Assembly: GCA_018343915.1 (NCBI GenBank)
Contig: JABRWF010000006.1
Coordinates: 3,472,001-3,536,000, forward strand
Direction: 5' to 3'
Length of the DNA stretch: 64,000 bases
Source of the DNA: Agroathelia rolfsii
Lineage: Eukaryota; Basidiomycota; Agaricomycetes; Amylocorticiales; Amylocorticiaceae
In this document: positions 14,076 through 58,200 of the stretch, one piece after another
How positions within the stretch are numbered: position 1 is the first letter of the stretch
How the letters are laid out: each line of letters starts with the position of its first letter
Translations under genes and position numbers: made by a program
Notes under the pieces: generated by a model
What the model saw: only the letters and a program-made list of their open reading frames with translations
Databases searched by the model: none
Told to the model about the DNA's origin: nothing

Positions 14076-14299
14076 AGGCATCTAGAAACTAAGGGTGGTT
14101 TTCTGCTAGTTTACATTCTAACCAGTATAATATAATCTATATAAGATTTTTGTTAGGTATAGCTTGGGATAGAGATACTAAAATATAATAGTTGCTTCTA
14201 TACTAGCACTAGGTACTATTTTGCTATATTTGCTTGTTTGTTTTTTAGTTTCTATTTGGTCTATCATTCCTCTACTTTTTGTAAATTCAAAGTGTTACA

Positions 14300-14780: not shown

Positions 14781-16022
14781 TATTACAACTATAGTTATAC
14801 CATGCCATAGATACTATAGCATTTAATTATGTCTACTAAGCATATATTTAGGTTTACCAAGTATATACCTAGGTTTATTCAGCATACACTCAAGATAACC
14901 ATGAAATCACTCAAGTATTTATTATTATTATTATCAAGCTACAAATCATGCTGTAGAGGCTATTATATATAATATATCACAGTATATTATCTATAAGTCA
15001 TAGTATATCACAGTAAACCATAGTTTATTATTTGGTCAAAGCTTAATTCTAAGCCCAAGGCTTAGAAACAGGTATATTATTATTTCCGCTCCTTTTCACT
15101 GTCATGCTAGTTGTGACATATCATACATCATATCACACAAAAGAGTGTAACTTTGTATTCCCCATCTTCAGGCACTATCACAGTTATATAGGAACTATAA
15201 TATATCATGATAATCATTGAAACAATCAAGGAAGAACCTAGGAATGATATTGGATCATTTAGTAAGGATTAGTAACTAGAAAAGCATACCAAAGTAGGAG
15301 AACAATAGTATACAATTATGTATTGAAGTTACTAAGGTCTAAGAGATGTTTCCCATCTCACAGACCTCTTTTATTAATACTATCATTGTTCTTTATTGCC
15401 TCAGGTTCTCTTTACACCTTTAAGCCTCTATTGTGCTGCTCCCATTGCCCTAAGTCATAGTCATAGTTATTATAGTTGTTAAAGTCATAGTACACTCTCT
15501 TATAGTTAACCTTAGGGTTGGATGTTGTGACTGTACAGAATGCCCTAGCAGCTGTACCAAAGATGCAATAAAGGAAATTGGAGCGGAGCTCTAATATTCA
15601 GTAGGAGATTAAAATACAGTATATATATAAGGTAGTAACATATTTTAATGACAACGGTCTTTATACCTAAACTACTACCACCACCTTGCACCTACATACA
15701 CACATAAGCTTTATCACTTATCACCTTCACCCATGTAAGTCTAATACATATATTAGTAGTGTGTATAGCATAGTACATAAGTACAATAGTAGTAGTACAT
15801 CATATATAGTAGTGTACAGTACAGTGGCGGCCAGATACACACGCTGCTGGTCTTAGGACTGGCACTGTTCATTATTGGAAACTCTAGGAGTGTTACTTCT
15901 AGCCTTGGATTAGGCTTTACAACCTACTGTTTACTGCTTAAGTATTCTTAATAGTCTTTTCCATAGCAATCCCTTATAAATATTTATAAGTATTCATAGT
16001 CATAGTTGATAGACCTATGACA
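14781..16022 (-). mobile_element. Family-2 solo LTR (reverse), interrupted by a 352-bp insert
   Basis: It reads TATTACAACTATAG at the left and ends GACCTATGACA, the reverse of the family's TGTCACAGGTC start. The interior has the family's TTTCCGCTCC, GTTGTGACATATCA and CATCTCACAGACCTC blocks. The flanks (AAATC and ATAGG) do not match, so there is no TSD. This is unlike the other family-2 copies in the window and suggests a rearrangement here. Confidence 0.7.
15523..15874. mobile_element. 352-bp insertion with TSD TTGGA, possible short LTR/TRIM
   Basis: The host family-2 LTR is interrupted exactly between two copies of TTGGA (15,518-15,522 and 15,875-15,879). The insert starts TGTTGTGACTGTACAG and ends CACTGTTCATTA. 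It contains a TATA-like run near 15,616-15,630 and no open frame. I see it only once in this window. Confidence 0.6.
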
Positions 16023-34565: not shown

Positions 34566-34762
34566 AGAAGACTAGGCTACAAACTATACACTAAGCTTAC
34601 ATAAGTAAAATGTCTATATGCTGAGATATTAAGTAATCTTTACAAAAATATTAAATATCTAGATACTTTTTTGACCAACTGTATAAATAAATATACAGGG
34701 TATCTTAGCTTTAATAAATGTAGGGCAAGCCTTTATTTACTTTTGAGCATAGAGCTCAGATG

Positions 34763-37700
34763 GATTTGTGAATTACTACTGTAAATGGCTAGTATAAAGC
34801 CTAAGCTTATCTTATGATTATATGACTTGCTTGGTTATAAGAATACTTATATAGTGTCTAATTATATAATATATGATTTATATACCAAAAAACAGAGAAA
34901 AATCCAGAAAAAATCAGAAAAATAGTAAGAAAATCTAAATAAATTTATAATACAACAAGTAACTTATAACATAATTAATATAAAATATATATAGCCTTAA
35001 GATTACTTCTATAATATATAGCTTAAAACATATAAGGGCTAATTATATAACTACTATACTGCCTATAGTCTATACCCTAAAGGGGTAATTTTTATAAGAA
35101 AATAAAGAAAATATCAAAATAAAAGAGATACTAGTCCAAATATTACAAGAAAATAACTAAAAAATCAGCAAAAATTATCTTAAATAATCTAACTCATAAC
35201 AATTAAAGGCCTATATAACAGACTTTTAGCGGCTACTATATATTGTAACACTTTGAATTTACAAAAAGTAGAGGAATGATAGACCAAATAGAAACTAAAA
35301 AACAAACAAGCAAATATAGCAAAATAGTACCTAGTGCTAGTATAGAAGCAACTATTATATTTTAGTATCTCTATCCCAAGCTATACCTAACAAAAATCTT
35401 ATATAGATTATATTATACTGGTTAGAATGTAAACTAGCAGAAAACCACCCTTAGTTTCTAGATGCCTTTACATGGCATTGTTATAGCCCCTAATCTCTAG
35501 ATTTAGTTCTAGACTACTATCTTCTTTTATAAACTGAGATGAATATTGTTCATCATCAAACATACAGGGGGCCTGAAATTGTCGGAGTTTTGCTGCAGTG
35601 GGATTCTCTGTTCTAAACACTTCGGGAATAGATCTCCCAGAGGCATCCAAAAGTTCTTTCCAAGAGGTTTCTTCTTGCTCCTTTATTGGACCCCAGATAT
35701 GATGGTTAAGACCTGAAAACCAAAGGTCATACGTAGTAAAATAGGACTTTCGATCCCCTCTGAGTTTCCTTTGCGAAGTCTGGCTAGAAAGGTTGACTAC
35801 AGTTGGGTGATCAGAAGATAATGCGACAACGATTCGAATGATTGGTATGCATCCTATAGAGTAGTCTTTGTCATTCTTTGAAAAAAGACGTAGGAGGTAA
35901 GGGTCCATATCATCGAATAGGAGAGGATCAACTTTTGAGCCATATTCTATGTTGTTTTTGACCTGGTACATTATGAATGTCACGTTATATCGTCCTAGAG
36001 CCTCGTTGTAGTATGTGATTGGGATGACACCGTCTATCCGTGGTTGATTCAGTGCACACTCAACCCCAGCACGACGAGGTATACGTCGCCATATAAAGTT
36101 CCGGTTCAGGACAGCAGAATTACCAGCTCTCGCGAAATGATTCATGTTCATCTTCGAATTTTTGAAAGCATCTCGAAGGCGTGTTTCCAGGGTGATCCCG
36201 CTATTAGGATGGACACAAGACGGCAATGCATCGAGTACATCACAAACAAATACACCTTGTGATGACGGCGAACCGCAGAGCTTTTGCAGGAACGCAGGAA
36301 CGGACCAAGCTTCAGGGTGACCCGCCGTGGCCACCATATCAGTGGCAAGGATCACAAGCAGTTTGAAAATTGCTTCACCCCGTGGCCCGCGTTCAACCTC
36401 CGGCCGGCGGTATTCGTTTGAAAGAACCGACGCAGCATTGAAAGGAAATTTCTGCATCACATATTTTGCCCCTTCCGCCAGAATCGGCTCCGAAGGCGAT
36501 ATAGTATGGACACCATCAAACGAAGGCTCAGCCTTCAAGCATACACGCATGTGGTCTTCGACGTGGCGCATCTCTCGTTTCCTGGCTTCGTATGACCAAC
36601 GATTGAAGTCAAGACCCAAGCGACACATAAGGCAAGCTAGTAGTGCATCCTCGTGCAGAATGTTGTTTGAATTGATGATACTCAAATCGTCCATTTTTGT
36701 GAGCTTTTGAGCGGCAAAGATAACGATCTGTCCTCTTAACTCTTCGGCTCCATATGCATACCGCGTTGCGAACCTATCGAGCCATAACTATAAGTTCAGA
36801 CATATAGGATGTATACAATTTACACACAGCGGTCGGCCCAGCTTGACCAAGTATCCTAGTCGCATCACATCCTCCATCGTTGTCTGGCCTTCGACGGCAT
36901 GTTCTGCCAGCATGTCGTACCCGAGATCAGTGTATGGTGGCATCAATTTCAGCCCACTAAACCTTGTTACGCGCGCAGAAGAGTCGAGACCTCTCGGAGG
37001 CGTGAATTGGAAGACTTGGCCTGTGGTCGACAAGAAGACGGAGAAGATAGCCTGATGTCGTATTTTCCGTAGTGCACGTCGCAAACAAGAGAAGTGAGTT
37101 GGCGAGGAGGCAGAAACGTTGGCTGCTTTTACGACTGTGCTCAGAGTATGTGCTTCGTCGAAAGACAGAATGATGATGGGCGAAGATGGCTTCCAATCGT
37201 CCTGCTTGAATTTTAAGAGAGCGTCCTCCAGCGATTTAGCAGCATCAATGATGGTCATTTTAGATAAAGACCCGAGATCGGCTTTTCTATTGTGTTCATT
37301 CCAAGCCATAAAAACAAAAGCAAAACAGAAAAGCTCACTGGAAGGTTTCCAAGTAATAATGTGGTCAGGCGAGTCCGGCGCTCGCACTTGCACATATTTC
37401 GCTTGAGGAGTGACTGGGCCCGATGTCTTGTTTTGTGAGTCATCAGGACGCCAACCGTTGTCTTCTGGGCTCAGTTCCTTAGCGAGATCGACCACACTCC
37501 GAAAAAAGTTCTCTCGATTCTCGTTAGGTTTCTCGAACTTCTGGTCTTTGCTCATGTAAGTTCGAAAAGTATACGCAACCTGCCTGATGGAAACATCTCT
37601 TGATGAGAAGTTGTTGTTGATCCATTTTATTGCTTTTATGAAGGCCGATGTCAAGAATGCCTGCGCGTTCCGATTAGCCTCTGCTTCTTCCTTAGCCTGC

Positions 37701-38690
37701 GTAAGATAGTTTCGAACATCAATATCGGCTGGAGGAAATCCTTCTGAAAGAGTTTTTTTTTGTTAGTTGCGCCGCTCAGTATCGAGTCCGCTCGATAACG
37801 CACCTGATTGATCATGGCGTAGACAAAATGGGATCGTAAAATGGGTCTTGCTCATCTCATCGACTAGTCTCGATTTTCCCATTCCAGATGACTGAATAAT
37901 GGAAGAATATTTGGCATAGTATTCGACGTTGGAACTTGTAAAGTCCTCGCATAGCTTTTCAACGTGGAACCAGAATGACTCGTGAGCCTTGCCAGTGTAG
38001 TCCCGACTCCAAGACTTCACGGTTGCTATGGAGGCTTCAGAATGCTATCGTAAGAAGGCTCAAGCACGTACCATCAGTAGAAAGTGATGGATGTATAAGA
38101 TCCAAGTTTGAGCCTTTTTTTTCTGCAAGGATTACTAAAAATGATTTGAGATAATTGAATGCCACAAAATATCAGCATATTTACACGATTGGAACAGGCA
38201 TTCCAAGTCAAAGTTGGATTCGGTTTCCAGGAAGCCGGTGTAGAGATGTTTCAAGTCAGTAAGCTGTTTCTCAGGCAAGTGCTCAAAGTGGGAAAGTATA
38301 TGCTTCTGCATTCGAGGCGCATTCTTGAAACATTCCAGCTGGGTCTTCGTAAGGAGATTTAGGAAATGGGCTCCCAATGCATCGAATGTGAATTCAATGC
38401 AGAGAGACAGAGCGGGGCGGGAAAATTTCTCTTTGGGGGAATGCAATAGCTGTAGTAATGAATCTCCCCCCTCTGTGAGCTCCGTGTACAGGCGCTTCAG
38501 GAAGCGTGCTTCTAGAGTACTATCCGGCACGGACTCGGGCTCGGACTCGGATAGGTCTTGTCCTGGTCGTTTGATGGAGGGAGAGCTATGTTTGTCATTA
38601 GTCAAGGAGTCGTATGATGCATCGCGCTTTTCGTTTGGCATTGTGTGCAAGATGGAGGATCTAGTCGATGATAAGGCCCTGTTAAGTTCG
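34763..38690 (-). repeat. Right arm of large inverted duplication
   Basis: Reverse complement of 10,880-14,780 (see left arm). At the inner edge, the gypsy LTR fragment (34,763-34,970 in common) continues leftwards with recognisable LTR sequence to about 34,690, so this copy keeps more of the ancestral arm. Confidence 0.9.
35468..38641 (-). CDS. Crinkler-like P-loop NTPase + PD-(D/E)XK nuclease, copy 2, 5 exons
   Basis: Exons (minus): 38641-38185, 38134-38072, 38025-37804, 37743-36828, 36773-35468. Together 2964 nt, 987 aa. From within exon 1 onward it is identical to copy 1, with the same Walker A (SSGMGKSR), Walker B (SFDEAH) and nuclease (RIDGVIPI, YQVKNN) motifs. Exon 1 differs: the header starts MPNEKRDASYDS instead of MSNEKREAAYDS, has two extra residues (SEPESVP), one extra residue near the LHSPKEK block, and several substitutions. 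It is oriented tail-to-tail with copy 1 across the transposon block. The frame is intact, so both copies could be expressed. Confidence 0.85.
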
Positions 38691-41615: not shown

Positions 41616-42648
41616 TGTTGAAAGATCAAATATTTACAGGCTTCATATCTTTCCAATAATTCCAATGAATACTTCAAATAATCATCTAACATCATATCAT
41701 ACATGATTATTTATTTCATGATTTTACAACTGTTCATTGTTGAGATATTAACAATTCTTTACATGCATATATTCATTGAAATAATATGCATATATTCTTT
41801 TATTTAATATTTTCAATATTTCATTATATCTAATCTTATCAGAGATAAGATTATCATATCTGAAGTCACTTGACTTTATCATTTATGAATATCTTTTTCA
41901 TAAATATTAAACAATTCCATTTAAATATTCATTTCTCAATAATCATTGTGAATATTACTAATTGATTTTTCACGCCCTAGATCCTTGCTTATAAATCACC
42001 AAAATATTTACTAAGCAAGTTCATAATATTAGTAATATTTATAAAATATTACTAATATAGATCTAATAATAGGATATTGAGATCAATAGACATTTTACTT
42101 ACTAATACTATACAAATTACTTACTAAGCACACAGATTGCTTACCAAGCATATTATTCAGCAAATAGGAATATTACTAAGCTGATTTATAAGCTGATTTG
42201 TAAGTAACCCTTCTTACTAAGCGGATTAGATAAGCACAGGATTGGCTTACTAATCTTGTAGAAATTAGAATATTTTGTATTATATAAGCACCAGCAAATT
42301 CGGCTGGAAATGATAAGTTATTTCACTTGAAAATAGTGAGTTAAATAGTCTACAAGACTAGCTCCTAGAGTACTAACTTCACCCTAGACTTACAAAGTCT
42401 ACAAGACAAGACAACAAGCCTTTCCTAAAGGGAAACAAGTAGGTAGTCTCAAAGGGACACCGGCTATAGTCTTATCTTCAGTATAGCAAAGTTACTAATC
42501 GCTTCCTATCCTAGGAAACCTTGCCTTATCTTAGGAACAACCCAAAGCCTGCACTTTTCTTTACAAGTAAGTGTTTGCTTCACAACAGGTAACTTGTGAG
42601 CTAGCATATAGCCACACTATACAACCCAAGAACTACAATAGTTCAACA
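41616..42648 (+). repeat. Copia B 5' LTR
   Basis: TGTTGAAAGATCAAA to ACAATAGTTCAACA. Rich in ATTAGTAATATTT-type AT repeats; about 97-98% alike by eye to the copia A LTRs. Confidence 0.9.
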
Positions 42649-42664
42649 GGTTATGAGCCCTGCC
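42649..42664 (+). promoter_or_regulatory. Primer-binding site, initiator tRNA-Met anticodon region
   Basis: GGTTATGAGCCC directly follows the LTR. Its complement, GGGCTCATAACC, is the anticodon stem-loop of eukaryotic initiator tRNA-Met (CAT anticodon). This matches the internal half-tRNA priming known for Drosophila copia, rather than the usual 3'-CCA end. Confidence 0.7.
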
Positions 42665-44186
42665 TAAAAAGGCAGTCAGTATAAAAACAGGAGTAACTAA
42701 CACAAATTTGTTATTCTAGTGTCTTCCTTCAACACCGAGATCTCCAACACATTCACCACTGTTGCCCAGGCAATCAACTTTGCCAACAGTAACCCTACCA
42801 CCTCTATTGATCAATCAGAGATTGACAAGCAGTGGCAAAAAGATCTCAAGAGTAAAAGCCTACTGATTAAATAAATCAAAAGAATTACTAATAAATTCTT
42901 TATAGGCACAGAAATCCTCTGGTCACCCTCTGAATCCATTAAGCAAGAAGAAGATATCGATCTCCTTCAGGCCTTTTTAGACTCAGACAACGACATCAAG
43001 GAAAAGGAAGACAGTAAGAGAATTATAGTATAAAAAATCCGAAAATAAAGGATAAAAAATACTAATAAAATTCTCTAGGCCTCAATAATATCAACCAGGC
43101 CCTTAGCAAATTTACGATTAACCCAGAAATCCACTGGGAAACATATCAAGAATTTTCTAGAAGCTTCAAAGATATTAGGAAGGAGTCCCCAGCGACTTAC
43201 ATCTCCATAATCACAGATATCAAGGTCAACAAGGACAAGTACAACCTTGATCACAACCAAGTCACCCATTACATAACAGCAGAATTAGCCAATCAACAGG
43301 ACGTTTGGTGCAAGCACTTCAACATCCCATTGACTGGACCCTGCTGGACTGTCCGTGACATCTTTCAAGAAGCCTCAATCTACAACCCGGACAAAGAATT
43401 TGTGTACCCAGGAGAAGAAGAGTCAGAACCTTCCGATATCAATATTTCTGACACCTCCTCCCCCTTCACATTATCTCCCTTGGTCAGTAGTGCCAATCTA
43501 GTGGAAAGAAGCCCCCTAGATAAATCAATTGGTGATCTTCAGGTAAAGTAAACAAAACTTTATCATTTCACCATCACTAACACACTTTTAGGAGCTTAAT
43601 AAACTCCCTGAAGAACCCATCGACAAGACCATTGGTTGGGGCACAGAAGGTCAGCAAAAATCAACTGCTCCACCTTCAAATCGTTCATATACACCCTGGT
43701 CAATGTCACAGGCCTAAGGCAATATCCTGCAATACTATGATTTTAGCTATTAATACTATGATGATATATTCTGTGAAAGACTATGAAAGATAAGGAATAG
43801 TTAATACAACCTAGTACAGGGCCAGCAGTAACGCCTCTAGGGTTTCCAACCCTGAGGTTACTTATAAGAACAAAGCTATGATTAGGATAACTATAATAAC
43901 TGTGACTTATGACTTGGACTTGTAGGAGCGGTATAGAGACAAGGAAATACTCTTAAGGCTGATAGACACTTGAAGGGGACTTTAGACAGTGAGACAATAA
44001 TACTAGAATTGACGAAAGAGGTCTGTGAGATGGGGAACATCTCTTAGACCTTAAAGGTTTAAATACATGATGGTATACTATTGTTCTCTATATTGGTACG
44101 CTCTCCTAGCTTCTAACCCTTACTAAATACTCCAATATAACTCCTAGGATCCTCCTTGATTGTTCCAATGATTATCATGATGTGTT

Positions 44187-45217
44187 TGTTGAACTATCGT
44201 AGTTCTTGGGTTGTATAGTGTGGCTATATGCTAGCTCACAAGTTACCTGTTGTGAAGCAAACACTTACTTGTAGAGAAAAGTGCAGGCTTGGGTGGTTTC
44301 CTAAGAATAGGCAAAGTTTCCTAGGTAGGAAGCGGTTAGTAACTATGCTATACTTAAGATAAGACTGTAGCCGGTGTCCCTTTGAGACTACCTACTTGTT
44401 TCCCTTTAGGAAAGGCTTGTTGTCTTGTCTTGTAGACTTTGTAAGTCTAGGGTGAAGTTAGTACTCTAGGAGCTAGTCTTGTAGACTATTTAACTCACTA
44501 TTTTCGAGTGAAATAACTTGTCATTTCCAGCCGAATTTGCTGGTGCTTATATAATACAAAATATTCTAATTTCTACAAGATTAGTAAGCCAATCCTGTGC
44601 TTATCTAATCCGCTTAGTAAGAAGGTTGCTTACAAATCAGCTTATAAATCAGCTTAGTAATATTCCTATTTGCTGAATAATACGCTTGGTAAGCAATCTG
44701 TGTGCTTAGTAAGTAATTTGTATAGTATTAGTAAGTAAAATGTCTATTGATCTCAATATCCTATTATTAGATCTGTATTAGTAATATTTTATAAATATTA
44801 CTAATATTATGAACTTGCTTAGTAAATATTTTGGTGATTTATAAGCAAGGATCTAGGGCATGAAAAATCAATTAGTAATATTCACAATGATTATTGAGAA
44901 ATGAATATTTAAATGGAATTGTTTAATATTTATGAAAAAGATATTCATAAATGATAAAGTCAAGTGACTTCAGATATGATAATCTTATCTCTGATAAGAT
45001 TAGATTTAATGAAATATTGAAAATATTAAATAAAAGAATATATGCATATTATTTCAATGAATATATGCATGTAAAGAATTGTTAATATCTCAACAATGAA
45101 CGGTTGTAAAATCATGAAATAAATAATCATGTATGATATGATGTTAGATGATTATTTGAAGTATTCATTGGAATTATTGGAAAGATATGAAGCTTGTAAA
45201 TATTCAATCTTTCAACA
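44187..45217 (-). repeat. Copia A 3' LTR
   Basis: 1031 bp, + strand TGTTGAACTATCG to CAATCTTTCAACA; identical to 52,235-53,265 as far as compared. Confidence 0.92.
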
Positions 45218-45236
45218 CTCCCACTCAATGAATGCT

Positions 45237-48200
45237 TTATTGCTTTAACCATCTAAGATCATTTGTTAGTCCAGCTAAATTTGAAAAATAGCTGTGCTTT
45301 GTTTCTGCCAAAGGCTTGGTTAAAACATCTGCTAGTTGTTGGTTAGTATTAATATACTCAGTCCTAGCAGTACCATCGGAGACTGTTTCTCTGATAAAGT
45401 GATGCCTAACTTCAATGTGTTTAGTACCTCTACCACCATGTTTAGGGTTATTGGCTAGGCTAATAGCTCCTTGATTATCTGTAAAAATAGTTGTTGGGTT
45501 AGATATATCTTCACCTATGTCATTTAGTAGTTTCCGTAACCATTTAACTTGTTTTGCTGCTTCTGTGAGAGCCATATATTCAGCTTCTACACTAGATAAT
45601 GCAGTGGTGTGTTGTCTTCTGGTTGACCAGGAAGTTGCACCTTTGCACATCATGGTAATGTATCCAGTTGTAGATTTCCGGTCATCTAAGTCCATTGCCC
45701 AATCTGCATCTGAATATGCGGTTAATTCTTTTGGGTGTTGTCCTTGATAGACAATGGCTTTATCCGGGGTTTTGGATAGGTATTGGAATATATGATTTAC
45801 TGCAGTGAAATGCTCTTTTCCAGGATTTTCACTGTACTTCGCACATTTGTTTACAGCAAAAGTGATGTCTGGCCTAGTTATGATGGTTAAGAATGTGAGT
45901 GAACCAATCATGCTTTTGTAGTGGGTTTTATTGGCCTCTGTCACTTGGTTAGGGTTAGATTTGAGTTGGATGCTTGCTGACATCGGTGTAGAATATCCTT
46001 TTGATTTTTCTTTTTGGAATTTCTTTAGAATACCTTCACAGTAATCTTTTTGATCAATAGACAGTAATTTCTTTTTCCTGTTTCTATTGATATTGACGCC
46101 TAGGAATGATTTAGCTTCTCCAAGATCTTTCATTTCATATTTTTCCATGAGTTTTTTCTTAAAGTCTTGAATTCGCTTTTTCACTTTTCCCATGATTAAT
46201 AAATCATCAACATATAAAATGAGAATGATTTTATCATTTGGGTCTCCCACTTGTTGATGGTTTATGTAGATACCTGCATCTGAGTGTGTTCTTTTGAAAT
46301 TCATTTTTTCAAGTGTTGAATGTATTTCAAAATTCCACTGTCTGCCTGCTTGTTTTAATCCATAGAGGGATTTTTTAAGCTTGCAGACTTGATCTTCTTT
46401 TCCTTTGACTGAAAAACCTGTAGGTTGTTCCATGTAAATCTCATGGTTAAGTTTTCCATAAAGGTATGCAGTGGTAACATCCATTTGGTCAATTTCCCAA
46501 TCACTATATGTGGCAATTGCAAGTAAAACTCTGAATGCCTCATATCTTGCGACTGGTGACCAAGTGTCATCGAATGTATCATTTGTTTGTAAATCTCCTC
46601 TAGCAACATATCTAGCTTTGTAACGTCCATCTGATTTAATATTTAGAACCCATTTTCCTTTGAGGATTGTCTTGTTTTTGGGTCTATTAACCAGATCGTA
46701 AACATCCCTAGATTTTAATGAATCCATTTCTTTTTTCATAGCTTCTTCCCATTTTTCATGGTCAGGTGAATTCATTGCTTGTTTATATGTTCTGGGAATA
46801 TTTTCGACGTCTGCAGCCAATGTTAGCAGATGATTTATAGTTGGTTGAACTGGTTCGATTTGGCTTGAAGTGACATAGTCTTTATATCTGGGATTAGGTC
46901 TCTTTTCTCTTCTAGGTCGACTTGTTTCTCCAGGATCTATGTTTGCTTCTGGTGTTTGGGATTCACCTGGGAAATATTCTTCAGAAAAATCTCCAAGTGG
47001 TCCAAATCTGCCTGTTCTTCCAAGTGCTCCAGAAATACTATCTGGCTCTAGCTCTTCGTCACGTATTTCAGTATCTCTTAACTCTTCAAGATATGAAATA
47101 TCTTCTTCTTCATCTGTTGTAGAGATAGGGTTTGTTATATTCCCTATGTCTATGTATTCATTTTGTTTTCGAGGATAAAGTATTTTTTCTGAGGTAGTTT
47201 CAGAACCTGATATATCTGCCTCATTGTTTTGAGGTAGCATATATTGAGCCTTTTTCTTTTCTTTCATAGGAAATATGTGTTCATTGAACTTAACATCGTA
47301 TGAATCCCATATCTTTCCAGTAATTGGATCATAAAGTCTCCAACCTTTGGAACCTTCTGGATATCCTATGAAAATTGTTTTTCTGGCTTTGTCTGAAAGT
47401 TTATTTTTTCTACCTTCCTTTGGAATAGTCATCCATGCCTGGCATCCAAATACCCGTATCCTTGATATATCTGGTTGTTTTCTATACCAAGATTCATATG
47501 GAGTTTTCCAGGATTGAACTCTGGTAGGTGTACGGTTATAGGTGTATAGTGCCGCTTCCATGGATATTTTCCAAAATCCTTCTTTCATTCCAGCAGTTTT
47601 CCTAATGGCTTCAGCTTTTTCATGGATGGTTCGTTGAACTCTTTCTGCTCTGCCATTTTGTTGGTGTGTATGCGGAATAGAAGTTTCTCTAGAAATACCA
47701 AAGTCATTGAGAAATTTGTCAAAATCTTTTGACATATATTCTCCACCTCTATCTGATCTGATAGTTTTTAACTTATTTCCAGATTGCCTTTCTGACCATG
47801 TAACATATTTTTTAAATACTTCAAGGGTTTCATCTTTTGATGATATGAAGTACATTGTGCAATATGAAGTGGCATCATCTAGGAATGTCACAACATATTT
47901 TATGTTACTCCGGATGGCATTTACTGGAAGTGAGTATAAGTCTGAGTGTACCAAATCATTTGGGTTTTTAGTACGCTCTGGAGATGGAAAATGTGGTGCT
48001 CTGATAGATTTCCCTAGTGCACAACCTTCACAGGTTTCATAAGATGTCTTTCCTATATTTTTAGGTCCACCTATGGTGTTTCCTAAGATTTTATGGATAA
48101 CATCACTACCTGAGTGTGCAAATCTTTGATGAATTAATTCATAGGGTGTTTCTTCTGAGCTATGCAAAGATTTTGCATGTTGACTTTGTGTGATTGATCC

Positions 48201-49583
48201 TCTAAACTCAAAATTATTGTTTAGGTTGATGTATGCGCTTAGAATCTTTTTTTTGTTGATCATTAATTCCATGGTTTTTCCAGATTTTCCAATGATCCAT
48301 ATCCCATTTGTTTTTTGTGAAATTTGTTGAGGGGATAGTAATCTTTCTCTAGTGTCTGGAATATACCTGACATTTGTAATGTCGAGTACATGTATTCTCC
48401 CACTGGAATCAATGTGTTTGATTTTGACAGTACCTATCCCTTTAATTGGGAGTCTGGTGCCATCTGAGATGATTGTGTATTTTTGTTTTTCAGGAGGAAA
48501 TGGTTTGTACTGGTGAAAATCCTTTAAATCAAATGTGGAGTGATGGCTAGTACCTGAATCAACTAGGTAAAAGAATTCATCATCCTGTGTTTTTTCTGTT
48601 TGATACAGAGAGAGTGAAGTATTTATTCCTTCATCGGAAGAGCCTTCAACTTCTTCTGTTCTTTGATTTGTTTTGGATTTTCCACCATAGTTTTTCTTTC
48701 CTGTATTTTTTCGATTAAGAGGTTTCCAATTGTCTATGTGTTTGTCAGTAGTATGTTTAACATACTTTTTGCACTTTTTGCAATAGTTTTTGTTATCTGA
48801 CTCCTGACTATTTGTTTTGTCTTGACCTTTAAATTTCTTTTTGAATTTTCTTTGGCCTTTAGACATATTGGACCTGCTTTGAGATTTATTATTAGTGTGG
48901 AGAGATTCACGTATGGTTTGTTCCTGCTGCAATTCTCCCCGGATTAAGTCTATTGTGGCCTTTTCGTAACCTCCCACTGCTCTTAGAATACTACCCCAAA
49001 TCATGCGGTATGAATCTGGAAGTATTTCTCCTATGCGTGAGATGAAATCTTTTTTTCCAATAGATAATCCTGTAGCATTGGCTCTTGTCTGTATTTCTTG
49101 CATTTCTGAGATTTGTGTAGCCATTGATTTATCAGTCCTGAGTCTGTAGGAGTAGAACTCAGTATGATATCTTTGACCTTCTGCAAGTCTTTGAGCTTTT
49201 GCCGCTGTATAAATTTTATTCCACATTTTAGCAGCTGTTTCTTCAGCCATTAAAATATTTGCCCAAGTTTCATTTACACATCCTCCAAGTAAACCCTTTG
49301 CACGATCATCTGCTTGATCCCATGCATTAGCTAGAATGATTTTTTTGTCTTCTCCCCAAGAAATCCCTGCAGCTGAAGCTAATTCTTGTGGTAGAATTTC
49401 TGCTGGCTTGAGATCTGGTTTTTGTAAGGGAGTAGGATCATCCTTAGGTAATCCTTTAGAGAACATTGTCCAAATGCGCAATGACTTGGCTAGGAAATAA
49501 AATTTAACTGAGAATTTGGCCCAATTTGAACCGTTGAAAACAGGAAATCCTGAGGGTATATCTTTTATAAGTATTTCAGTCAT
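45237..49583 (-). CDS. Copia A Gag-Pol polyprotein, 1448 aa
   Basis: Domains in order: a UBN2/DUF4219-like Gag (residues 1-260); a Cys/His stretch CKKCKKYVKHTTDKH near 270-290, a non-standard knuckle; an aspartic protease LVDSGTSHH (about 340-348); an integrase zinc-binding region with HQRFAHSG and CEGCALGK; an integrase core with HSDLYS (D about 546), SDRGGEY and NGRAERVQ (E about 645); RT with WVLNIKSDGRYKARYVARGD, DVTTAYLYG and YVDDLL (about 1124); RNase H with AYSDADWA, SSVEAEYMAL and FTDNQGAISLA. All catalytic acids are present. The protease-integrase-RT-RNase H order is Ty1/copia. The ATG at 49,583 lies two codons after the in-frame ORF2 stop, in the same frame. Confidence 0.95.
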   Translation of the reverse strand: MTEILIKDIPSGFPVFNGSNWAKFSVKFYFLAKSLRIWTMFSKGLPKDDPTPLQKPDLKPAEILPQELASAAGISWGEDKKIILANAWDQADDRAKGLLGGCVNETWANILMAEETAAKMWNKIYTAAKAQRLAEGQRYHTEFYSYRLRTDKSMATQISEMQEIQTRANATGLSIGKKDFISRIGEILPDSYRMIWGSILRAVGGYEKATIDLIRGELQQEQTIRESLHTNNKSQSRSNMSKGQRKFKKKFKGQDKTNSQESDNKNYCKKCKKYVKHTTDKHIDNWKPLNRKNTGKKNYGGKSKTNQRTEEVEGSSDEGINTSLSLYQTEKTQDDEFFYLVDSGTSHHSTFDLKDFHQYKPFPPEKQKYTIISDGTRLPIKGIGTVKIKHIDSSGRIHVLDITNVRYIPDTRERLLSPQQISQKTNGIWIIGKSGKTMELMINKKKILSAYINLNNNFEFRGSITQSQHAKSLHSSEETPYELIHQRFAHSGSDVIHKILGNTIGGPKNIGKTSYETCEGCALGKSIRAPHFPSPERTKNPNDLVHSDLYSLPVNAIRSNIKYVVTFLDDATSYCTMYFISSKDETLEVFKKYVTWSERQSGNKLKTIRSDRGGEYMSKDFDKFLNDFGISRETSIPHTHQQNGRAERVQRTIHEKAEAIRKTAGMKEGFWKISMEAALYTYNRTPTRVQSWKTPYESWYRKQPDISRIRVFGCQAWMTIPKEGRKNKLSDKARKTIFIGYPEGSKGWRLYDPITGKIWDSYDVKFNEHIFPMKEKKKAQYMLPQNNEADISGSETTSEKILYPRKQNEYIDIGNITNPISTTDEEEDISYLEELRDTEIRDEELEPDSISGALGRTGRFGPLGDFSEEYFPGESQTPEANIDPGETSRPRREKRPNPRYKDYVTSSQIEPVQPTINHLLTLAADVENIPRTYKQAMNSPDHEKWEEAMKKEMDSLKSRDVYDLVNRPKNKTILKGKWVLNIKSDGRYKARYVARGDLQTNDTFDDTWSPVARYEAFRVLLAIATYSDWEIDQMDVTTAYLYGKLNHEIYMEQPTGFSVKGKEDQVCKLKKSLYGLKQAGRQWNFEIHSTLEKMNFKRTHSDAGIYINHQQVGDPNDKIILILYVDDLLIMGKVKKRIQDFKKKLMEKYEMKDLGEAKSFLGVNINRNRKKKLLSIDQKDYCEGILKKFQKEKSKGYSTPMSASIQLKSNPNQVTEANKTHYKSMIGSLTFLTIITRPDITFAVNKCAKYSENPGKEHFTAVNHIFQYLSKTPDKAIVYQGQHPKELTAYSDADWAMDLDDRKSTTGYITMMCKGATSWSTRRQHTTALSSVEAEYMALTEAAKQVKWLRKLLNDIGEDISNPTTIFTDNQGAISLANNPKHGGRGTKHIEVRHHFIRETVSDGTARTEYINTNQQLADVLTKPLAETKHSYFSNLAGLTNDLRWLKQ

Positions 49584-49589
49584 TTTGAC

Positions 49590-50321
49590 TTATACAAATT
49601 CCCAGGATATAAAGCTGTCTTCGATAGGATATAGATATATGCTATAATTTTCTATGATCCTGTTGAGGCTTGTTTCAAGGTATTCCTTGTGATGATTTTC
49701 TAGGAATTCCTTAAAGTCTTTAAGGTTTGGACCTGGATGTATGCTATCCCAATGTCCTGAATTATAGAGGTAGATTATATCGTCTAATCTCTCTATATCT
49801 GTAAGACTAACTTTGTCTTCAATTTCCTCCGGTGTGAAGTATGGTATACTCCAATTATGAGGCGTTGGAGTGATTTTGATAAGATACCTTGTATGGTTTT
49901 GAGAGTTTCCTCTTACTTCTTCGTCTGGAAATGTGAAGGGTTCGACTTTGTCAAATCTTCCGAATACTCTTGCAAGAATTATTCTTTCTGCACAGAGAGT
50001 GAAGAATTTATTCTGGAAATCCTGACTGACTTTTTCCCAATTATATTTGGTACTGTCGAATAGGAATTTCTTTATTTCCAGGTATAATTCTGGGTTTCTG
50101 GATGGTGTAGGGAAATCTTTGTGATATGTTTCCCAATGAGATTTAAGGGTGATATGCCCTTCTCTTCGAAGTTTCTTTTTGTTCCTCTTTGCTAAGTATT
50201 TAAGTGAAGTTTTACTTAATTTCTTAGGAGGAGTGATTTCTTCAAACTCAAGTGGAATTTGAGTTTGAGGTGATTCTTCACCTGTAGAGTTGTGGTGATA
50301 TTGTGTTTTCTCTGATGCCAA
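49590..50321 (-). CDS. Copia A ORF2, about 243 aa, unknown function, no ATG
   Basis: The frame is open from about 50,357 to the TAA at 49,590-49,592. The first canonical ATG is absent, so the true start is unknown: non-AUG initiation or a spliced upstream exon. The acceptor-like TCAG near 50,309 is shared in phase with copia B. The product is Lys/Glu-rich with aromatic blocks: PKKLSKTSLKYLAKRNKKKL, KEFLENHHKEYLETSLNRII, DSFISWEFV. No signal, membrane segment or known domain is seen. The last ~190 residues are almost identical in copia B and the N terminus is diverged. It is in frame with gag-pol across a single UAA. Confidence 0.7.
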   Translation of the reverse strand: MASEKTQYHHNSTGEESPQTQIPLEFEEITPPKKLSKTSLKYLAKRNKKKLRREGHITLKSHWETYHKDFPTPSRNPELYLEIKKFLFDSTKYNWEKVSQDFQNKFFTLCAERIILARVFGRFDKVEPFTFPDEEVRGNSQNHTRYLIKITPTPHNWSIPYFTPEEIEDKVSLTDIERLDDIIYLYNSGHWDSIHPGPNLKDFKEFLENHHKEYLETSLNRIIENYSIYLYPIEDSFISWEFV

Positions 50322-50439
50322 TATTTTGCCTGTTTTTAAGTTTATAGTATACCTGAAGAATTCTTAGTATGAAAATAAAAATCCTTAGTAGACTTATGTT
50401 GGGCTTATTGAAAATCAAAGAATCACAAATACAATGTTT

Positions 50440-50480
50440 GATTTTTGTGGTAGCTAAGACTTGGCTACTTTCACAAAAGT
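50440..50480 (-). other. Conserved hairpin between ORF1 and ORF2 (copia A)
   Basis: On the minus strand TTTTGTG-AAA-GTAGC pairs with GCTAC-CACAAAA around a 9-nt loop. Copia B has the same design (54,304-54,342) with GTAAC/GTTAC, so one G-C pair is replaced by A-T on both sides although the flanks are diverged. An RNA element is inferred. Confidence 0.5.
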
Positions 50481-50660
50481 ACAGTTGCACAAAATTCAAA
50501 AATAAGTGAAATGATTGATGCAATGAAACTTGAAATGGCAGATATAAGGTTGTATAAAAATTCAAGGCTCAAGACAAAAATATAAAAGAAGAGGTAAAGA
50601 CTGAAGCGTAAAGATTTTTCTAGTACTAGTAGGACTTGTAGTACTAAAAGTATAAGACTT

Positions 50661-52209
50661 CTAATAAGGGGTGAATCTGTTACTTGTAAGCCTTCTACCA
50701 CCTCTATGAGACGTTCCAGTTTGGTTTTCTAGGATTTTCCTAGTCTGGGCCTCGAATCGATCCTTGAATTCTTTTAGCTCACCAGTGTACTTCTTGTTGA
50801 AATCCCTCTGGTGGTAATCGATCTCGAAGAGTCTACCTGCCTGATGATTAATCAATCGACGAATCTCCTTCCTTTCTTCTTCTGCCTTTGCAGCTACTCC
50901 TTTCTGGATCTCCTGGTTCCAACCTAAGGAGTATGAGAGTCCTCGTAATTCCTTGGTAAGGTCTTCCAGGGAACTTTTGTACCAGGAAAGTTGGGCTGAC
51001 TGGTGCTTGACTGTTGCTTCAAGAACGTTTACAGTCTTAAATGCAAACTGAAGGAGGGATTCTTGTTCAACTAAAGCTTGGTTAGCTTATCTAGTTGATT
51101 GTGATGTATGGTAATTAAATACCTTGTGTGGATGACGATGAGTCTATAGCCTTGGGAGTAATTTCTTCTTTTGCCCAGTCGTTGAGCTCTCTATTGCCTA
51201 CTGACCAAGGTGTGTATGGTCTAGACTGACTGGATCCCCAAGTTTCTGTATTGTCAACGTTGAACTCAGGTAACTGTTTAAGTTCCTGGTATAAGGATTT
51301 GAATGAGGAGGATTTAATAAATTTGATAAGATTCACCTGGACGTCTTTAACTGACTTGTCCTTAGGGCTTCTGATTTCTCCTTCCTCTAATGAAGATGAA
51401 GATGAAGAGATTGGGGAGAGCTGTGTATATTTTTCTGTGTCAATAAGCTTCTACTAAAATTAATTTTAGTTTGCTTACTGGTTCAGAAACCGATGATGGT
51501 GTAGATAGTTCTAAATCTGAGGAAGTGAGAGTGAGGGGGTCTGGATAGATGTATTCCTCCTCTGGGTTGTATCTTGCTGCTTCCTCAAAAATATCCTTGA
51601 TTGTCCAACAGGGTCCTGTCGATGGGATGTTGAAGTGTCTGCACCAGACGTCTTGTTGCTCTGTGATTTCTCTTGTGATGTAATCCCTAACGCTTTCTAT
51701 ACACTTCCACTTGTTTTGAATTTCAAGATCTGTTAGGATAGAAATGTATGTGGAGGGGGATTCTCTTCTTATGTCTTCGAAGCTATTGGTGAAAGCTTGA
51801 TAGTCAATCCACTGGAATTCTTCTTCAGTGGTAAACTGGGTAATCTCCTTGTTGATGTCTTCAAGGTTTTCCTCCTCTTTGTAGTTGCCTGTAGTTACTA
51901 GGCTTGGGACCTCCTCTAGGTCTTCTGATTTGATAGAGGGGCTGGAGGGCGATGGGTAGCCTGATTAGGAAGATATATCAGTTTCCTAATTTAGTATTTC
52001 CTTATCTGTGCTTACTGTTGAGATCTAGAAGCCACTGATGGTCGATCTCTTGATCCTCGATGATCTGCTGATCAAGGGTTTCTGCGATAGCAACCTGATT
52101 GGCAGAATTGATTGCCTGGGCAATAACAAGGTTGAAAGAGGCAGTGTTGGATTGGAAAGACACTAGAAAAGGGAATTATTTAGTTAGCTACTCCTGTTTT
52201 ATACTGACT
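50661..52209 (-). CDS. Copia A ORF1, spliced 428-aa protein of unknown function
   Basis: Exons (minus): 52209 (the A of ATG), 52162-52016, 51960-51479, 51420-51337, 51285-51123, 51070-50661. Total 1287 nt, 428 aa. Introns are 46, 55, 58, 51 and 52 bp, all GT-AG; intron 1 contains CTAAC. The protein starts MSFQSNTASFNLVIAQAIN, has an acidic linker, a conserved core (QQDVWCRHFNIP, TGPCWTIKDIFEEA, PYTPWSVGNRELNDWA), a coiled-coil-like C-terminal half (QLSWYKSSLEDLTKEL, GELKEFKDRFEAQTRK) and a basic end SHRGGRRLTSN. The same protein can be read from copia B despite heavy nucleotide divergence and different introns, which supports real coding. No membrane segment is seen, so it is not env-like. 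It could be an accessory Gag or nucleic-acid-binding protein. The last acceptor could be 6 nt upstream. Confidence 0.75.
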
Positions 52210-52218
52210 GCCTTTTTA

Positions 52219-52234
52219 GGCAGGGCTCATAACC
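52219..52234 (-). promoter_or_regulatory. Copia A primer-binding site, tRNA-iMet anticodon type
   Basis: On the minus strand GGTTATGAGCCCTGCC directly follows the 5' LTR, exactly as in copia B. It includes an ATG with only three further codons before a stop. Confidence 0.7.
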
Positions 52235-53265
52235 TGTTGAACTATCGTAGTTCTTGGGTTGTATAGTGTGGCTATATGCTAGCTCACAAGTTACCTGTTG
52301 TGAAGCAAACACTTACTTGTAGAGAAAAGTGCAGGCTTGGGTGGTTTCCTAAGAATAGGCAAAGTTTCCTAGGTAGGAAGCGGTTAGTAACTATGCTATA
52401 CTTAAGATAAGACTGTAGCCGGTGTCCCTTTGAGACTACCTACTTGTTTCCCTTTAGGAAAGGCTTGTTGTCTTGTCTTGTAGACTTTGTAAGTCTAGGG
52501 TGAAGTTAGTACTCTAGGAGCTAGTCTTGTAGACTATTTAACTCACTATTTTCGAGTGAAATAACTTGTCATTTCCAGCCGAATTTGCTGGTGCTTATAT
52601 AATACAAAATATTCTAATTTCTACAAGATTAGTAAGCCAATCCTGTGCTTATCTAATCCGCTTAGTAAGAAGGTTGCTTACAAATCAGCTTATAAATCAG
52701 CTTAGTAATATTCCTATTTGCTGAATAATACGCTTGGTAAGCAATCTGTGTGCTTAGTAAGTAATTTGTATAGTATTAGTAAGTAAAATGTCTATTGATC
52801 TCAATATCCTATTATTAGATCTGTATTAGTAATATTTTATAAATATTACTAATATTATGAACTTGCTTAGTAAATATTTTGGTGATTTATAAGCAAGGAT
52901 CTAGGGCATGAAAAATCAATTAGTAATATTCACAATGATTATTGAGAAATGAATATTTAAATGGAATTGTTTAATATTTATGAAAAAGATATTCATAAAT
53001 GATAAAGTCAAGTGACTTCAGATATGATAATCTTATCTCTGATAAGATTAGATTTAATGAAATATTGAAAATATTAAATAAAAGAATATATGCATATTAT
53101 TTCAATGAATATATGCATGTAAAGAATTGTTAATATCTCAACAATGAACGGTTGTAAAATCATGAAATAAATAATCATGTATGATATGATGTTAGATGAT
53201 TATTTGAAGTATTCATTGGAATTATTGGAAAGATATGAAGCTTGTAAATATTCAATCTTTCAACA
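52235..53265 (-). repeat. Copia A 5' LTR
   Basis: 1031 bp, the identical partner of 44,187-45,217. The inner edge meets the PBS; the outer edge meets TSD GTGTT. Confidence 0.92.
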
Positions 53266-54303
53266 GTGTTGTGGTTCCTATGTAACTGTGATAGTGCCTG
53301 GAAGATAGAAAATGTAAAGTTACGCTCTTTTGTGTGACGTGACGCGTGACATGTCACAACCAGCGCGACAGTAAAAGGGAGCGGAAACAATGATATACCT
53401 TCTTCTAAGCCTTGGGCTTAGAGCTAAGCTATGATCAAATCATAAACTATGATTTGCTGTAATATACTATGACTTATAAGTAATATACTGTGAGATGCTA
53501 TGTATCATAGCCTCTATACCATGATTTGTGGCTTGATAATAATAATATTAAATACTTGGTAAACCTGAATGTATGCTTATTAAACATGAATAAATGCTAT
53601 AGTGTCTATGGCATGGTATAACTATGGTTGTGACAGTCAATAGGAAATTACGAGCTCAACGACTGGGCAAAGATTCCAACACCACAAGAAATTCCTGAAC
53701 CCGGTGAAGGTATTTGATTTAGTAAATTAAATACATCACAACCTCACTAACAACTAGTCTTAACATCACCACTAGAACTCCTCAAGTTTGCTCTCAAGAC
53801 AGTTGACGTCCTAGAGCAAACCATCCTACACCAATCCTCACAGCTTTCGTGGTACAAGTCTTCTTTAGAGGACCTTACCAGAGAAGTCCGGGGCCTCCAG
53901 TACACCATTGGTTGGACCAACGAGATCCAGAAAGCAAAGGAGATCAAGACCCAGGAGGAACTTGAAAACCTTAAAAGATTGGTGAATACCCAGAGTAGGA
54001 GACTTGTTGACATTGATCTACACCAGAGAAATTTCAGCAGGAGACACTCTGGAGAGTTAAGGGAATTCAAAGACAGGTTTGAGGCACAGACCAGAAAGAT
54101 CTTAGAGAATCAGACTGGTACATCACACAGAGGTGGCAGGAGGAACAGGAAGCACAGATACACTCCTTTTTGAACAATTTTTTATATACATCAGAATTAT
54201 CCTCATCCTAAATAAATTTTTCTATCTCTTTTTGTTGTTTGGAGCCCTTGTATCTTTTATACAGCTCTATTTTCTTTCAAAAATCTTCTTCTATTTTCTG
54301 TAT

Positions 54304-54342
54304 TTTTTGTGAAAGTAACTATAGTATTTAGTTACCACAAAT
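54304..54342 (+). other. Conserved hairpin between ORF1 and ORF2 (copia B)
   Basis: TTTGTG-AAA-GTAACTA pairs with TAGTTAC-CACAAA around a short loop. It is the counterpart of 50,440-50,480 with compensatory changes. Confidence 0.5.
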
Positions 54343-54443
54343 ATTCATTATATTCTATTTCTCTGAATTCCCTTAAAGTCTGCCCAACATAAGTTTTTAT
54401 AAGCTCATCATTTTAATTTTGGTTTGTATTGAGCTTTACCTGA

Positions 54444-55202
54444 AACTTTGGCATAAAAACCTTTATTCTGGATTCAGATCAGGAAATAGAAACTCACTTA
54501 TTTGACACAGGTGAAGAAGATATACAGACTCAGAAACCTTTTGAGTTTGAAGAAGAAAAACCTTCTAAGAAATTAAGCAAAACTGCACTTAAGCTCTTAG
54601 AAAAGAAAAACAAAAAGAAACTTTGAAGAGAAGGGCATATCACCCTTAAATCTTGTTGGGAAACATACCACAAAGATTTCCCTACACCATCCAGAAACCT
54701 AGAATTATACCTGGAAATAAAGAAATTCCTATTTGACAGTACCAAATATAATTGGGAAAAAGTCAGCCAGGATTTCCAGAACAAGTTCTTCACCCTCTGT
54801 GCAGAAAGAATAATTCTTGCAAGAGTATTCGGAAGATTTGACAAAGTCAAACCCTTCACATTTCCAGACAAAGAAGTAAGAGGAAACTCTCAAAACCATA
54901 TAAGGTATCTTATCAAAATCACTCCAACGCCTCATAATTGGAGTATACCATACTTCACACCGGAGGAAATTGAAGACAAAGTTAGTCTTACAGATATAGA
55001 GAGATTAGACGATATAATCTACCTCTATAATTCAGGACATTGGGATAGTATACATCCAGGTCCAAACCTTAAAGATTTTAAGGAATTCCTAGAAAATCAT
55101 CACAAGGAATACCTTGAAACAAGCCTCAACAGGATCATAGAAAATTATAGCATATATCTATATCCTATCAAAGACAGCTTTATATCCTGGGAATTTGTAT
55201 AA
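54444..55202 (+). pseudogene. Copia B ORF2, one internal stop
   Basis: Open frame without an ATG, ending in the TAA two codons before the gag-pol ATG. A CGA codon of copia A (in the KKKLRREGH block) is TGA here, a CpG transition at about 54,624. From that point on the protein is nearly identical to copia A; before it, it is clearly diverged. Confidence 0.75.
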
Positions 55203-55208
55203 GTCAAA

Positions 55209-58200
55209 ATGACTGAAATACTTATAAAAGATATACCCTCAGGATTTCCTGTTTTCAACGGTTCAAATTGGGCCAAATTCTCAGTTAAATTTTATTTCCT
55301 TGCCAAGTCATTGCGCATTTGGACAATGTTCTCTAAAGGATTACCCAAGGATGATCCTACTCCCTTACAAAAACCAGATCTCAAGCCAGCAGAAATTCTA
55401 CCACAAGAATTAGCTTCAGCTGCAGGGATTTCTTGGGGAGAAGACAAAAAAATCATTCTACCTAATGCATGGGATCAAGTAGATGATCGTGCAAAGGGTT
55501 TACTTGGAGGATGTGTAAATGAAACTTAGGCAAATATTTTAATGGCTGAAGAAACAGCTGCTAAAATGTGGAATAAAATTTACACAGCAGCAAAAGCTCA
55601 AAGACTTGCAGAAGGTCAAAGATATCATACTAAGTTCTACTCCTACAGACTCAGGACTGATAAATCAATGGCTACACAAATCTCAGAAATGCAAGAAATA
55701 CAGACAAGAGCCAATGCTACAGGATTATCTATTGGTGAAAAGGATTTCATCTCACGCATAGGAGAAATACTTCCAGATTCATACCGCATGATTTGGGGTA
55801 GTATCCTAAGAGCAGTGGGAGGTTACGAAAAGGCCACAATAGACTTAATCCGGGGAGAATTGCAGCAGAAACAAACCATACGTGAATCTCTCCACACTAA
55901 TAATAAATCTCAAAGCAGGTCCAATATGTCTAAAGGCCAAAGAAAATTCAAAAAGAAATTTAAAGGTCAAGACAAAACAAATAGTCAGCAGTCAGATAAC
56001 AAAAACTATTGCAAAAAGTGCAAAAAGTATGTTAAACATACTACTGACAAACACATAGACAATTGGAAACCTCTTAATCAAAAAAATACAGGAAAGAAAA
56101 ACTATGGTGGAAAATCCAAAACAAATCAAAGAACAGAAGAAGTTGAAGGCTCTTCCGATGAAGGAACAAATACTTCACTCTCTCTGTATCAAACTGAAAA
56201 AACACAGGATGATGAATTCTTTTACCTAGTTGATTCAGGTACTGTCACAGGTCTATAACTGAAGGGCAAACTATGACTATGAATACTATGAATATTGTAA
56301 AGAATTACTATGAAAAGACTGTAGATAAAGCTTAAGGAAAAAACAGTAGGTTACCTAGCCTAATCCAAGGCTAGGAATGACGCTCTTAGGGTTTCCAACC
56401 CTAATGTTGATTATAAGGGAGTCTACTATGACTTTGACAACTATAATGCTATAACTATGACTTAGGACAAGGAAAGCAATACAGTGGGAACTTAGGGGCT
56501 TAGAGGAAGCTTAGGACAGTAAATAACAATGATGGTATTGACGAAAGAGGTCTGTGAGATGGGGAACATCTCTTAGACCTTAAAGGTTTAAATACATGGC
56601 TGTACACTATTGTTCTCTACTTTGGTACGCTCTACTGACTTCTAACCTTTACTAAATAATCCAATATAATCCCTAAGTTCCTCCTTGATTGTTCCAGTGA
56701 TTATCAGCATGTGTTGTAGTTCCTGTGTACCTGTGATAGTGCCTGAAGATAGGAAAATGTAAAGTTACGCTCTTTTGTGTGACGTGACCGTGACATGTCA
56801 CAACCAGCGCGGCAGTGATAGTAAGGGAGCGGAAGTAACAATAGGCTTATTTCTGAGCCTTAGCTCAGAACTAAGCTATAGCTAAGTAGTGAACTATGAT
56901 CCACTATAATATACTGTGACTTAGAAATAATATACTATGACTTATACTTTACTATGGCATCTATAGCTTGATTTATAGCTTGATAAAATAAAACTTAAAC
57001 ACCTAAGTAATTCCATAGCTATCCTGAATAAACCTAGGTATATACTTGGTAAACCTGGATATATGCTTGGTAAACTTGAATAAATGCTATTGAAGCTATG
57101 ATATGGCATAACCAGGGTTGTGACAGGTACTAGCCATCACTCCACATTTGATTTAAAGGATTTTCACCAGTACAAACCATTTCCTCCTGAAAAACAAAAA
57201 TACACAATCATCTCAGATGGCACCAGACTCCCAATTAAAGGGATAGGTACTGTCAAAATCAAACACATTGATTCCAGTGGGAGAATACATGTACTTGACA
57301 TTACAAATGTTAGGTATATTCCAGACACTAGAGAAAGATTACTATCCCCTCAACAAATTTCACAAAAAACAAATGGGATATGGATCATTGGAAAATCTGG
57401 AAAAACCATGGAATTAATGATCAACAAGAAAAAGATTCTAAGCGCATACATCAACCTAAACAATAATTTTGAGCTTAGAGGATCAATCACACAAAGTCAA
57501 CATGCAAAATCTTTGCATAGCTCAGAAGAAACACCCTATGAATTAATTCATCAAAGATTTGCACACTCAGGTAGTGATGTTATCCATAAAATCTTAGGAA
57601 ACACCATAGGTGGACCTAAAAATATAGGAAAAACATCTTATGAAACCTGTGAAGGTTGTGCACTAGGGAAATCTATCAGAGCACCACATTTTCCATCTCC
57701 AGAGCGTACTAAAAACCCAAATAATTTGGTACACTCAGACTTATACTCACTTCCAGTAAATGCCATCCGGAGTAACATAAAATATGTTGTGACATTCCTA
57801 GATGATGCCACTTCATATTGCACAATGTACTTCATATCATCAAAAGATGAAACACTTGAAGCATTTAAAAAATATGTTACATGGTCAGAAAGGCAATCTG
57901 GAAATAAGTTAAAAACTATCAGATCAGATAGAGGTGGAGAATATATGTCAAAAGATTTTGACAAATTTCTCAATGACTTTGGTATTTCTAGAGAAACTTC
58001 TATTCCGCATACACACCAACAAAATGGCAGAGCAGAAAGAGTTCAAAGAACCATCCATGAAAAAGCTGAAGCCATTAGGAAAACTGCTGGAATGAAAGAA
58101 GGATTTTGGAAAATATCCATGAAAGCGGCACTATACACCTATAACCGTACACCTACCAGAGTTCAATCCTGGAAAACTCTATATGAATCTTGGTATGGAA

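Follow-up and report, generated by a model that had tools for sequence, protein, structure and literature searches.

A Ty1/copia element of Agroathelia rolfsii with an intron-containing ORF upstream of gag-pol, whose start codon appears to be made by splicing, and an ATG-free leader

Complex retroviruses produce early proteins of the Rev/Rex type from multiply spliced RNA, while the unspliced RNA yields gag-pol and serves as the genome. The element described here would follow the same logic of a spliced accessory message and an unspliced gag-pol message, but it belongs to a different element class and its accessory ORF has no homology to the retroviral proteins. Within the copia superfamily, copia and BARE1 are described as splicing their RNA to make Gag, and the authors of that work knew of no other case in 2013 (PMC3735527). 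As in Drosophila copia and barley BARE1, part of the RNA of the present Ty1/copia element would be spliced and the rest kept as genome; splicing in those two elements makes Gag from the gag-pol frame, whereas here an extra protein is encoded upstream of gag, with several introns (PMC3735527). Extra sense ORFs, sometimes made from spliced RNA, are reported for LTR elements of plants and rotifers, most of them between pol and the 3' LTR (PMC7264820, PMC5408684). The ORF studied here, ORF1, is likewise an extra sense ORF with a spliced message, but the cases described in these sources include no multi-intron ORF between the 5' LTR and gag (PMC7264820, PMC5408684). Finally, for RTBV leaky scanning is reported to span 900 nt of upstream ORFs that have no internal AUG (PMC5902531). 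Like RTBV and the badnaviruses, the element is reverse-transcribing and has AUG-free upstream ORFs ahead of an AUG-started polyprotein, with a short uORF in the leader (PMC5902531). It differs from RTBV, a plant DNA virus with an AUG-free stretch of about 900 nt and an AUU start for ORF I, in being a Ty1/copia element with 2.6 kb to be scanned, introns included, and with a modelled ORF1 start that is not a non-AUG codon but a splice-made AUG (PMC5902531). No homology of the element to RTBV or the badnaviruses was found. A search of the open-licence literature, which leaves subscription papers mostly outside, gave no copia element with this arrangement.

The window analysed is a 64-kb stretch (64,000 nt) of the A. 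rolfsii genome, and copies were sought in that one genome, which amounts to 37.7 Mb in 8 contigs. Element A, a complete Ty1/copia element, occupies 44187-53265 on the minus strand, to which all of its features given below refer. Its 1031-bp LTRs (5', 52235-53265; 3', 44187-45217) have TG..CA ends and are flanked on both sides by the 5-bp target duplication GTGTT. The gag-pol frame (45237-49583) is open and single, encoding gag, integrase and RT/RNase H, with matches to Retrotran_gag_2 at residues 87-225, rve at 542-641 and RVT_2 at 962-1204. Element A is young, with two identical LTRs and an open frame. Integrase lies ahead of reverse transcriptase, the domain order of copia, and the LTR ends, target duplication and tRNA-Met primer site agree with this assignment. 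Copia-type primer sites are complementary to an internal part of tRNA-Met. In element A the primer-binding site, GGTTATGAGCCCTG (52221-52234), pairs over 14 nt with the anticodon arm of the tRNA-Met(CAT) genes of the same genome, and a uORF of four codons, ATG AGC CCT GCC TAA (52216-52230), opens within it.

ORF1 lies between the 5' LTR and gag-pol. In our gene model, exon 1 (52016-52162) is followed by intron i2 (51961-52015, 55 nt), exon 2 (51479-51960), which encodes a predicted helical middle domain, intron i3x (51421-51478, 58 nt), exon 3 (51123-51420), intron i5 (51071-51122, 52 nt) and exon 4 with the stop codon (50661-51070), the best-conserved part, which ends with FKDRFEAQTRKILENQTGTSHRGG and then a basic tail. 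With a leader intron of 154 nt (52163-52316) added to the three short ones, the product has 445 aa. A preliminary description of this DNA had proposed an intron-split coding region here, with phase kept in every exon, and third-position substitutions, variable intron lengths and precise intron losses bear this out; its five introns of 46-58 bp and 428 aa, on the other hand, give way to the present model. By arithmetic (445-17=428 aa) its fifth intron would be 51286-51336, a segment that is in frame, measures 51 nt in 7/7 aligned A copies, and is missing from 0/13 stretches in which both of its ends match. Its translation, VNLIKFIKSSSFKSLYQ, aligns with VSLLEFIRSETFIRLYK in a distant family of copies, with synonymous changes (over only 17 codons), and the segment is probably an exon in A. 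Its first intron also has a better donor, the GTAAGT inside the 5' LTR. The earlier end point at 52209 implies, at a guess, a first intron of 46 nt, and ORF1 would therefore be left without an AUG. The splice-made AUG, a 2.65-kb ATG desert and a second Met-less ORF, described below, go beyond that description.

Copies of ORF1 in this genome fall into three families: A, B and a distant C. Family B was modelled on an uninterrupted copy (C6_2719575) because the B copy of the window is broken up by insertions; the model has four short introns in addition to the leader intron, and its product of 427 aa matches the length previously given for the B homologue. The family C model, with one in-frame stop among its 502 codons, has two short introns besides the leader intron; the two copies of this family (L068 and L070) are both on contig C7, at distances of about 8 kb and 86 kb from its ends. 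A and B share 55% identity in the ORF1 protein, and C is 32-34% identical to either. At the place of A's 51286-51336 segment, B has an intron of 49-51 nt (B-i4, 43543-43591 in the window), so that the same site is coding in A and C and intronic in B. Intron i3x of A and i3 of B also lie at different sites, and introns thus seem to have been gained or lost between the families. ORF1 has no match to any described family in the protein collection or in Pfam, and analysis of exon 2 yielded no clear fold.

Searches of the genome gave 33 matches to ORF1 exon 2, 32 to exon 4 and 35 to the second, 257-codon ORF, counts that take in decayed copies and fragments. Seven A and eight B copies were aligned; fragments were left out, as were one copy in which the gag start was not recognised (C6_4046397) and one with an insertion (C6_3415699). 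Among 13 within-family pairs, three are near-identical copies and not informative; in all ten informative pairs omega for ORF1 is 0.06-0.15, at dS 0.13-0.65. This is far below the value near 1 that would have counted against the preliminary description, and the many copies in three families likewise answer the concern that ORF1 might occur in two copies only. Substitutions concentrate on the third codon position (for example 10, 2 and 41, or 31, 20 and 123, at the three positions), and between A and B pN is 0.30 and pS 0.77, which is saturated. The exons have no deleted base in 10/13 copies (the count covers deletions, not insertions); the remaining three show 2-4 gap columns, and all three have lost an intron at which the aligner placed the gap 2 bases off. 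Intron lengths, by contrast, vary in non-triplet steps (A-i3x 54-58, B-i3 62-66 and B-i4 49-51 nt). These comparisons indicate that ORF1 is a real coding gene under purifying selection.

Traces of splicing are found in the genomic copies themselves. We probed 34 stretches for intact and joined forms of each intron, leaving uncounted those that matched neither form. Precise absence was found for A-i2 in one copy (C6_3964972; present in 12), A-i5 in three (present in 10), B-i3 in one (present in 13) and B-i5 in two (present in 10). No precise loss was seen in the probed stretches for A-i3x (present in 11), B-i2 (11) or B-i4 (13), although by eye B-i2 is absent from two related copies, where divergence of the exon made the probe fail. 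Throughout ORF1 of the 15 aligned copies, every gap of at least 8 nt is of about intron length and lies at an intron. The simplest cause of the precise losses is the copying of partly spliced RNA, and although they need not all be independent events, they show through their genomic products that several internal ORF1 introns are spliced in vivo. The core of the preliminary description is upheld by these losses together with the low omega and the number of copies: a Ty1/copia element carries an accessory gene with introns, expressed from spliced RNA, and its genomic RNA retains them. A search for genomic copies that lack the leader intron gave none (the probe found it present in 5 and 3 stretches), which is what one would expect of an RNA that cannot be copied, and the case for the leader splice therefore rests on sequence.

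That case is as follows. The donor in the LTR reads ..CTACAA/GTAAGT; beyond the primer site, the first acceptor to follow reads ..TTCTAG/TGTCTTTCC. Removal of this intron joins an A (52317) to a TG (52162-52161) and creates the ORF1 AUG, with ACA ATG TCT in frame. The same split A/TG arrangement is found in B and in family C, despite different U5 and ORF1 sequences. GTAAGT stands at the LTR donor position in 23/26 stretches and the donor is damaged in two; in one copy (C3_2034485) foreign DNA separates the LTR from the primer site and the donor is kept. Where both sites were recognised, the junction reads AATG in 13/14 stretches and AATA in one decayed copy. Between the LTR and ORF1 the only AUG is that of the primer-site uORF, which in family C reads ATG AGC CCT GAC TAA, and the 240 nt before the donor are ATG-free in 13/14 copies. 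An ATG at 52572, near a TATA-like box, would give a short extra uORF if transcribed. The Met at the junction is the only one in all three modelled ORF1 proteins (A, B and C). The start codon of ORF1 thus appears to exist only after splicing, and we infer from the conserved sites that the leader splice is used.

The lack of internal Met codons in ORF1 is part of a larger feature. From the primer-site ATG to the gag ATG (49584-52229) the sense strand of element A contains no ATG in 2645 nt, against an expectation of 40 from base composition or 23 from a first-order Markov model. The same stretch contains 48 CAT, and gag-pol has 103 ATG. This desert covers ORF1, the introns, the spacer and the second Met-less ORF. 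The longest ATG-free runs in the window are the A leader (2647 nt) and the two halves of the B leader (1585 and 1050 nt); the next is 675 nt. Among 30 stretches, 16 could be measured: seven have no ATG, eight have 1-5 and one with a foreign insert has 29, where 23-34 are expected (53 for the copy with the insertion). When extra ATGs in aligned copies are compared with the reference copy, 14/20 align with ACG or GTG. The window copy of A and C2_1136498 differ by 128 substitutions, which would be expected to create 5.7 new ATGs, and both have none; in L070 of family C there are five over 2.8 kb. When the protein and its pool of codons are held fixed, synonymous shuffles of ORF1 contain more ATGs than the real sequence (P 0.0005 for A, 0.0015 for B and 0.02 for C). 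Introns from i2 onward contain none in 165 (A), 232 (B) and 105 (C) nt, for a Markov expectation of 0.9, 0.4 and 0.0, and the spacer none where 3.0 (A) and 3.5 (B) are expected. Six other copia elements of the same genome served as controls, and none of them has an ATG-free run above 296 nt in its upstream region. The gag start could be placed in four of these: in three it falls at an ATG of a primer-like site (1-2 mismatches) and in one 87 nt from the primer site, so that gag of these relatives begins at or near the primer site. The three elements of the former kind are L071, L074 and L075, in which gag appears to begin at an ATG that forms part of the primer-binding site. As separate observations, the window is poor in CG-containing triplets, the longest free runs reaching 7.8 kb, and C>T/G>A changes are in excess in several of the older copies, a pattern that suggests RIP-like mutation.

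The second ORF lacking Met spans 257 codons (49590-50363) and ends, in A with a TAA, 6 nt ahead of the gag ATG in A and B and 1 nt ahead of it in C. It is Met-less in the A, B and C copies read. A and B are 90% identical in this ORF and C is 30-32% identical to them; omega is 0.15-0.57 in ten informative pairs. Compared with synonymous shuffles it shows little depletion of ATG (P 0.16 in A, 0.03 in B, 0.10 in C). No match to any described family was found in the protein collection or Pfam. The ORF may be a further, alternative exon of ORF1, may start at a non-AUG codon, or may be coupled to gag by reinitiation.

We consider it likely that a single LTR transcript has two mutually exclusive readouts, the spliced form giving ORF1 and the unspliced form giving gag-pol by scanning, so that splicing probably decides which protein the RNA makes. 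After the presumed start in the LTR, the unspliced genomic RNA would contain one AUG only, that of the four-codon uORF, which is forced because the primer site is complementary to the CAU anticodon of tRNA-Met. Ribosomes would pass this uORF or reinitiate after it, and would then reach the gag-pol AUG by scanning through about 2.6 kb of RNA without any AUG. Splicing of the leader intron would assemble an AUG at the junction (ACA A/TG TC), from which ORF1 would be made, and would remove the primer site, leaving an RNA that could not be copied; one splicing event would therefore set both coding and replication capacity. Comparison of the copies shows the coding nature of ORF1 and the selection on it, the splicing of its internal introns, the ATG desert and the conserved split AUG. 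Scanning to gag and bypass of the uORF are steps that we infer; the proposed scan of 2.6 kb exceeds the 900 nt reported for RTBV, and the AUG of the uORF has to be passed as well.

The difficulty of so long a scan would be eased if gag-pol had a spliced mRNA of its own, with the LTR donor joined to an acceptor close to the 257-codon ORF or to gag, or if it depended on an internal promoter or IRES within the pyrimidine-rich spacer; the desert would then protect only some RNA forms. The 257-codon ORF does open beside possible acceptors, such as TTCTTCAG and AAAACAG, the spacer (50364-50660) looks leader-like, and a shorter leader would be easier to scan. We nevertheless think this unlikely: the introns and the spacer are free of ATG too, which a short gag-pol mRNA would not require, and a search confined to junctions from exon 3 found no genomic copy joining exon 3 to the 257-codon ORF. 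The desert might instead keep ribosomes off genomic RNA destined for packaging, with gag-pol made from a minor RNA, in keeping with the separate RNA pools reported for BARE (PMC3735527). This is less probable still, since the first AUG behind the desert is that of gag-pol itself, in a frame that is full of ATGs, and the sequence does not indicate a second RNA. That ORF1 and the desert are an effect of chance or composition, or a product of C>T decay, is very hard to credit: the C>T/G>A excess of older copies and the scarcity of CG-containing triplets would fit it, but decay makes ATGs, as the ACG and GTG alignments indicate, and the strand-specific depletion that stops at gag, the low omega and the precise intron losses already contradict it.

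Under the preferred reading, in which splicing of one LTR transcript selects between ORF1 and gag-pol, the protein encoded by ORF1 could, at a guess, be a helper of RNA export, packaging or translation. A more speculative extension, to which we give little weight, is a retrovirus-like programme of early and late expression. The first product would be ORF1, from multiply spliced RNA whose start codon the spliceosome assembles; with its helical middle domain and basic tail it would act as a regulator, helping the AUG-cleared unspliced RNA to be exported, packaged or translated. The switch would lie in the LTR leader splice, because one step creates the AUG and removes the primer site. If the preferred reading is true, the coding content of an LTR RNA and its ability to be copied both hang on one splicing event, which directly answers the question of how an RNA keeps its roles as genome and as messenger apart. 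An AUG-cleared leader, described for plant pararetroviruses, would here occur in a copia element at larger scale, and the element makes it testable how far ribosomes can scan. The combination of a strand-specific ATG desert with a split AUG offers a simple signature for hidden spliced genes in other elements.

The ORF1 region also appears to have been mobile between elements. Every pairing of U5 type 1 or 2 with ORF1 type A or B is represented, by 10, 2, 2 and 8 copies; three further copies pair a type-3 U5 with ORF1 type B and one is unclassified. Two copies in this tally were reassigned by eye. Between A and B, synonymous sites are saturated in ORF1 and dS is 0.14 in the 257-codon ORF. This mixing and the difference in divergence point to the swapping of ORF1 blocks between co-active elements.

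Element B, a relative of A on the plus strand, starts at 41616 and has its 3' end at about 63612. Its 5' LTR (41616-42648) and leader intron (42567-42719, 153 nt, the AUG again split A/TG) are followed by the 5' part of ORF1 (42720-43703), which has introns at 42852-42905, 43014-43078 and 43543-43591 and contains no ATG. The AUG-free second half of the leader (53624-55209) holds the 3' part of ORF1 with an intron at 53710-53775, the spacer and the 257-codon ORF, here with one in-frame TGA, and runs up to the gag ATG at 55209. Elsewhere in the window, a 3.7-kb inverted repeat (11102-14783 and 34760-38441) is reported as 100% complementary, and its frames of 324 and 439 aa have no Pfam family match. 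Element B is cut twice, at 43704-53635 and at about 56256-57125, by related insertions that look non-LTR and have TGTCACA/TGTGACA-like ends, and element A lies inside the first of them.
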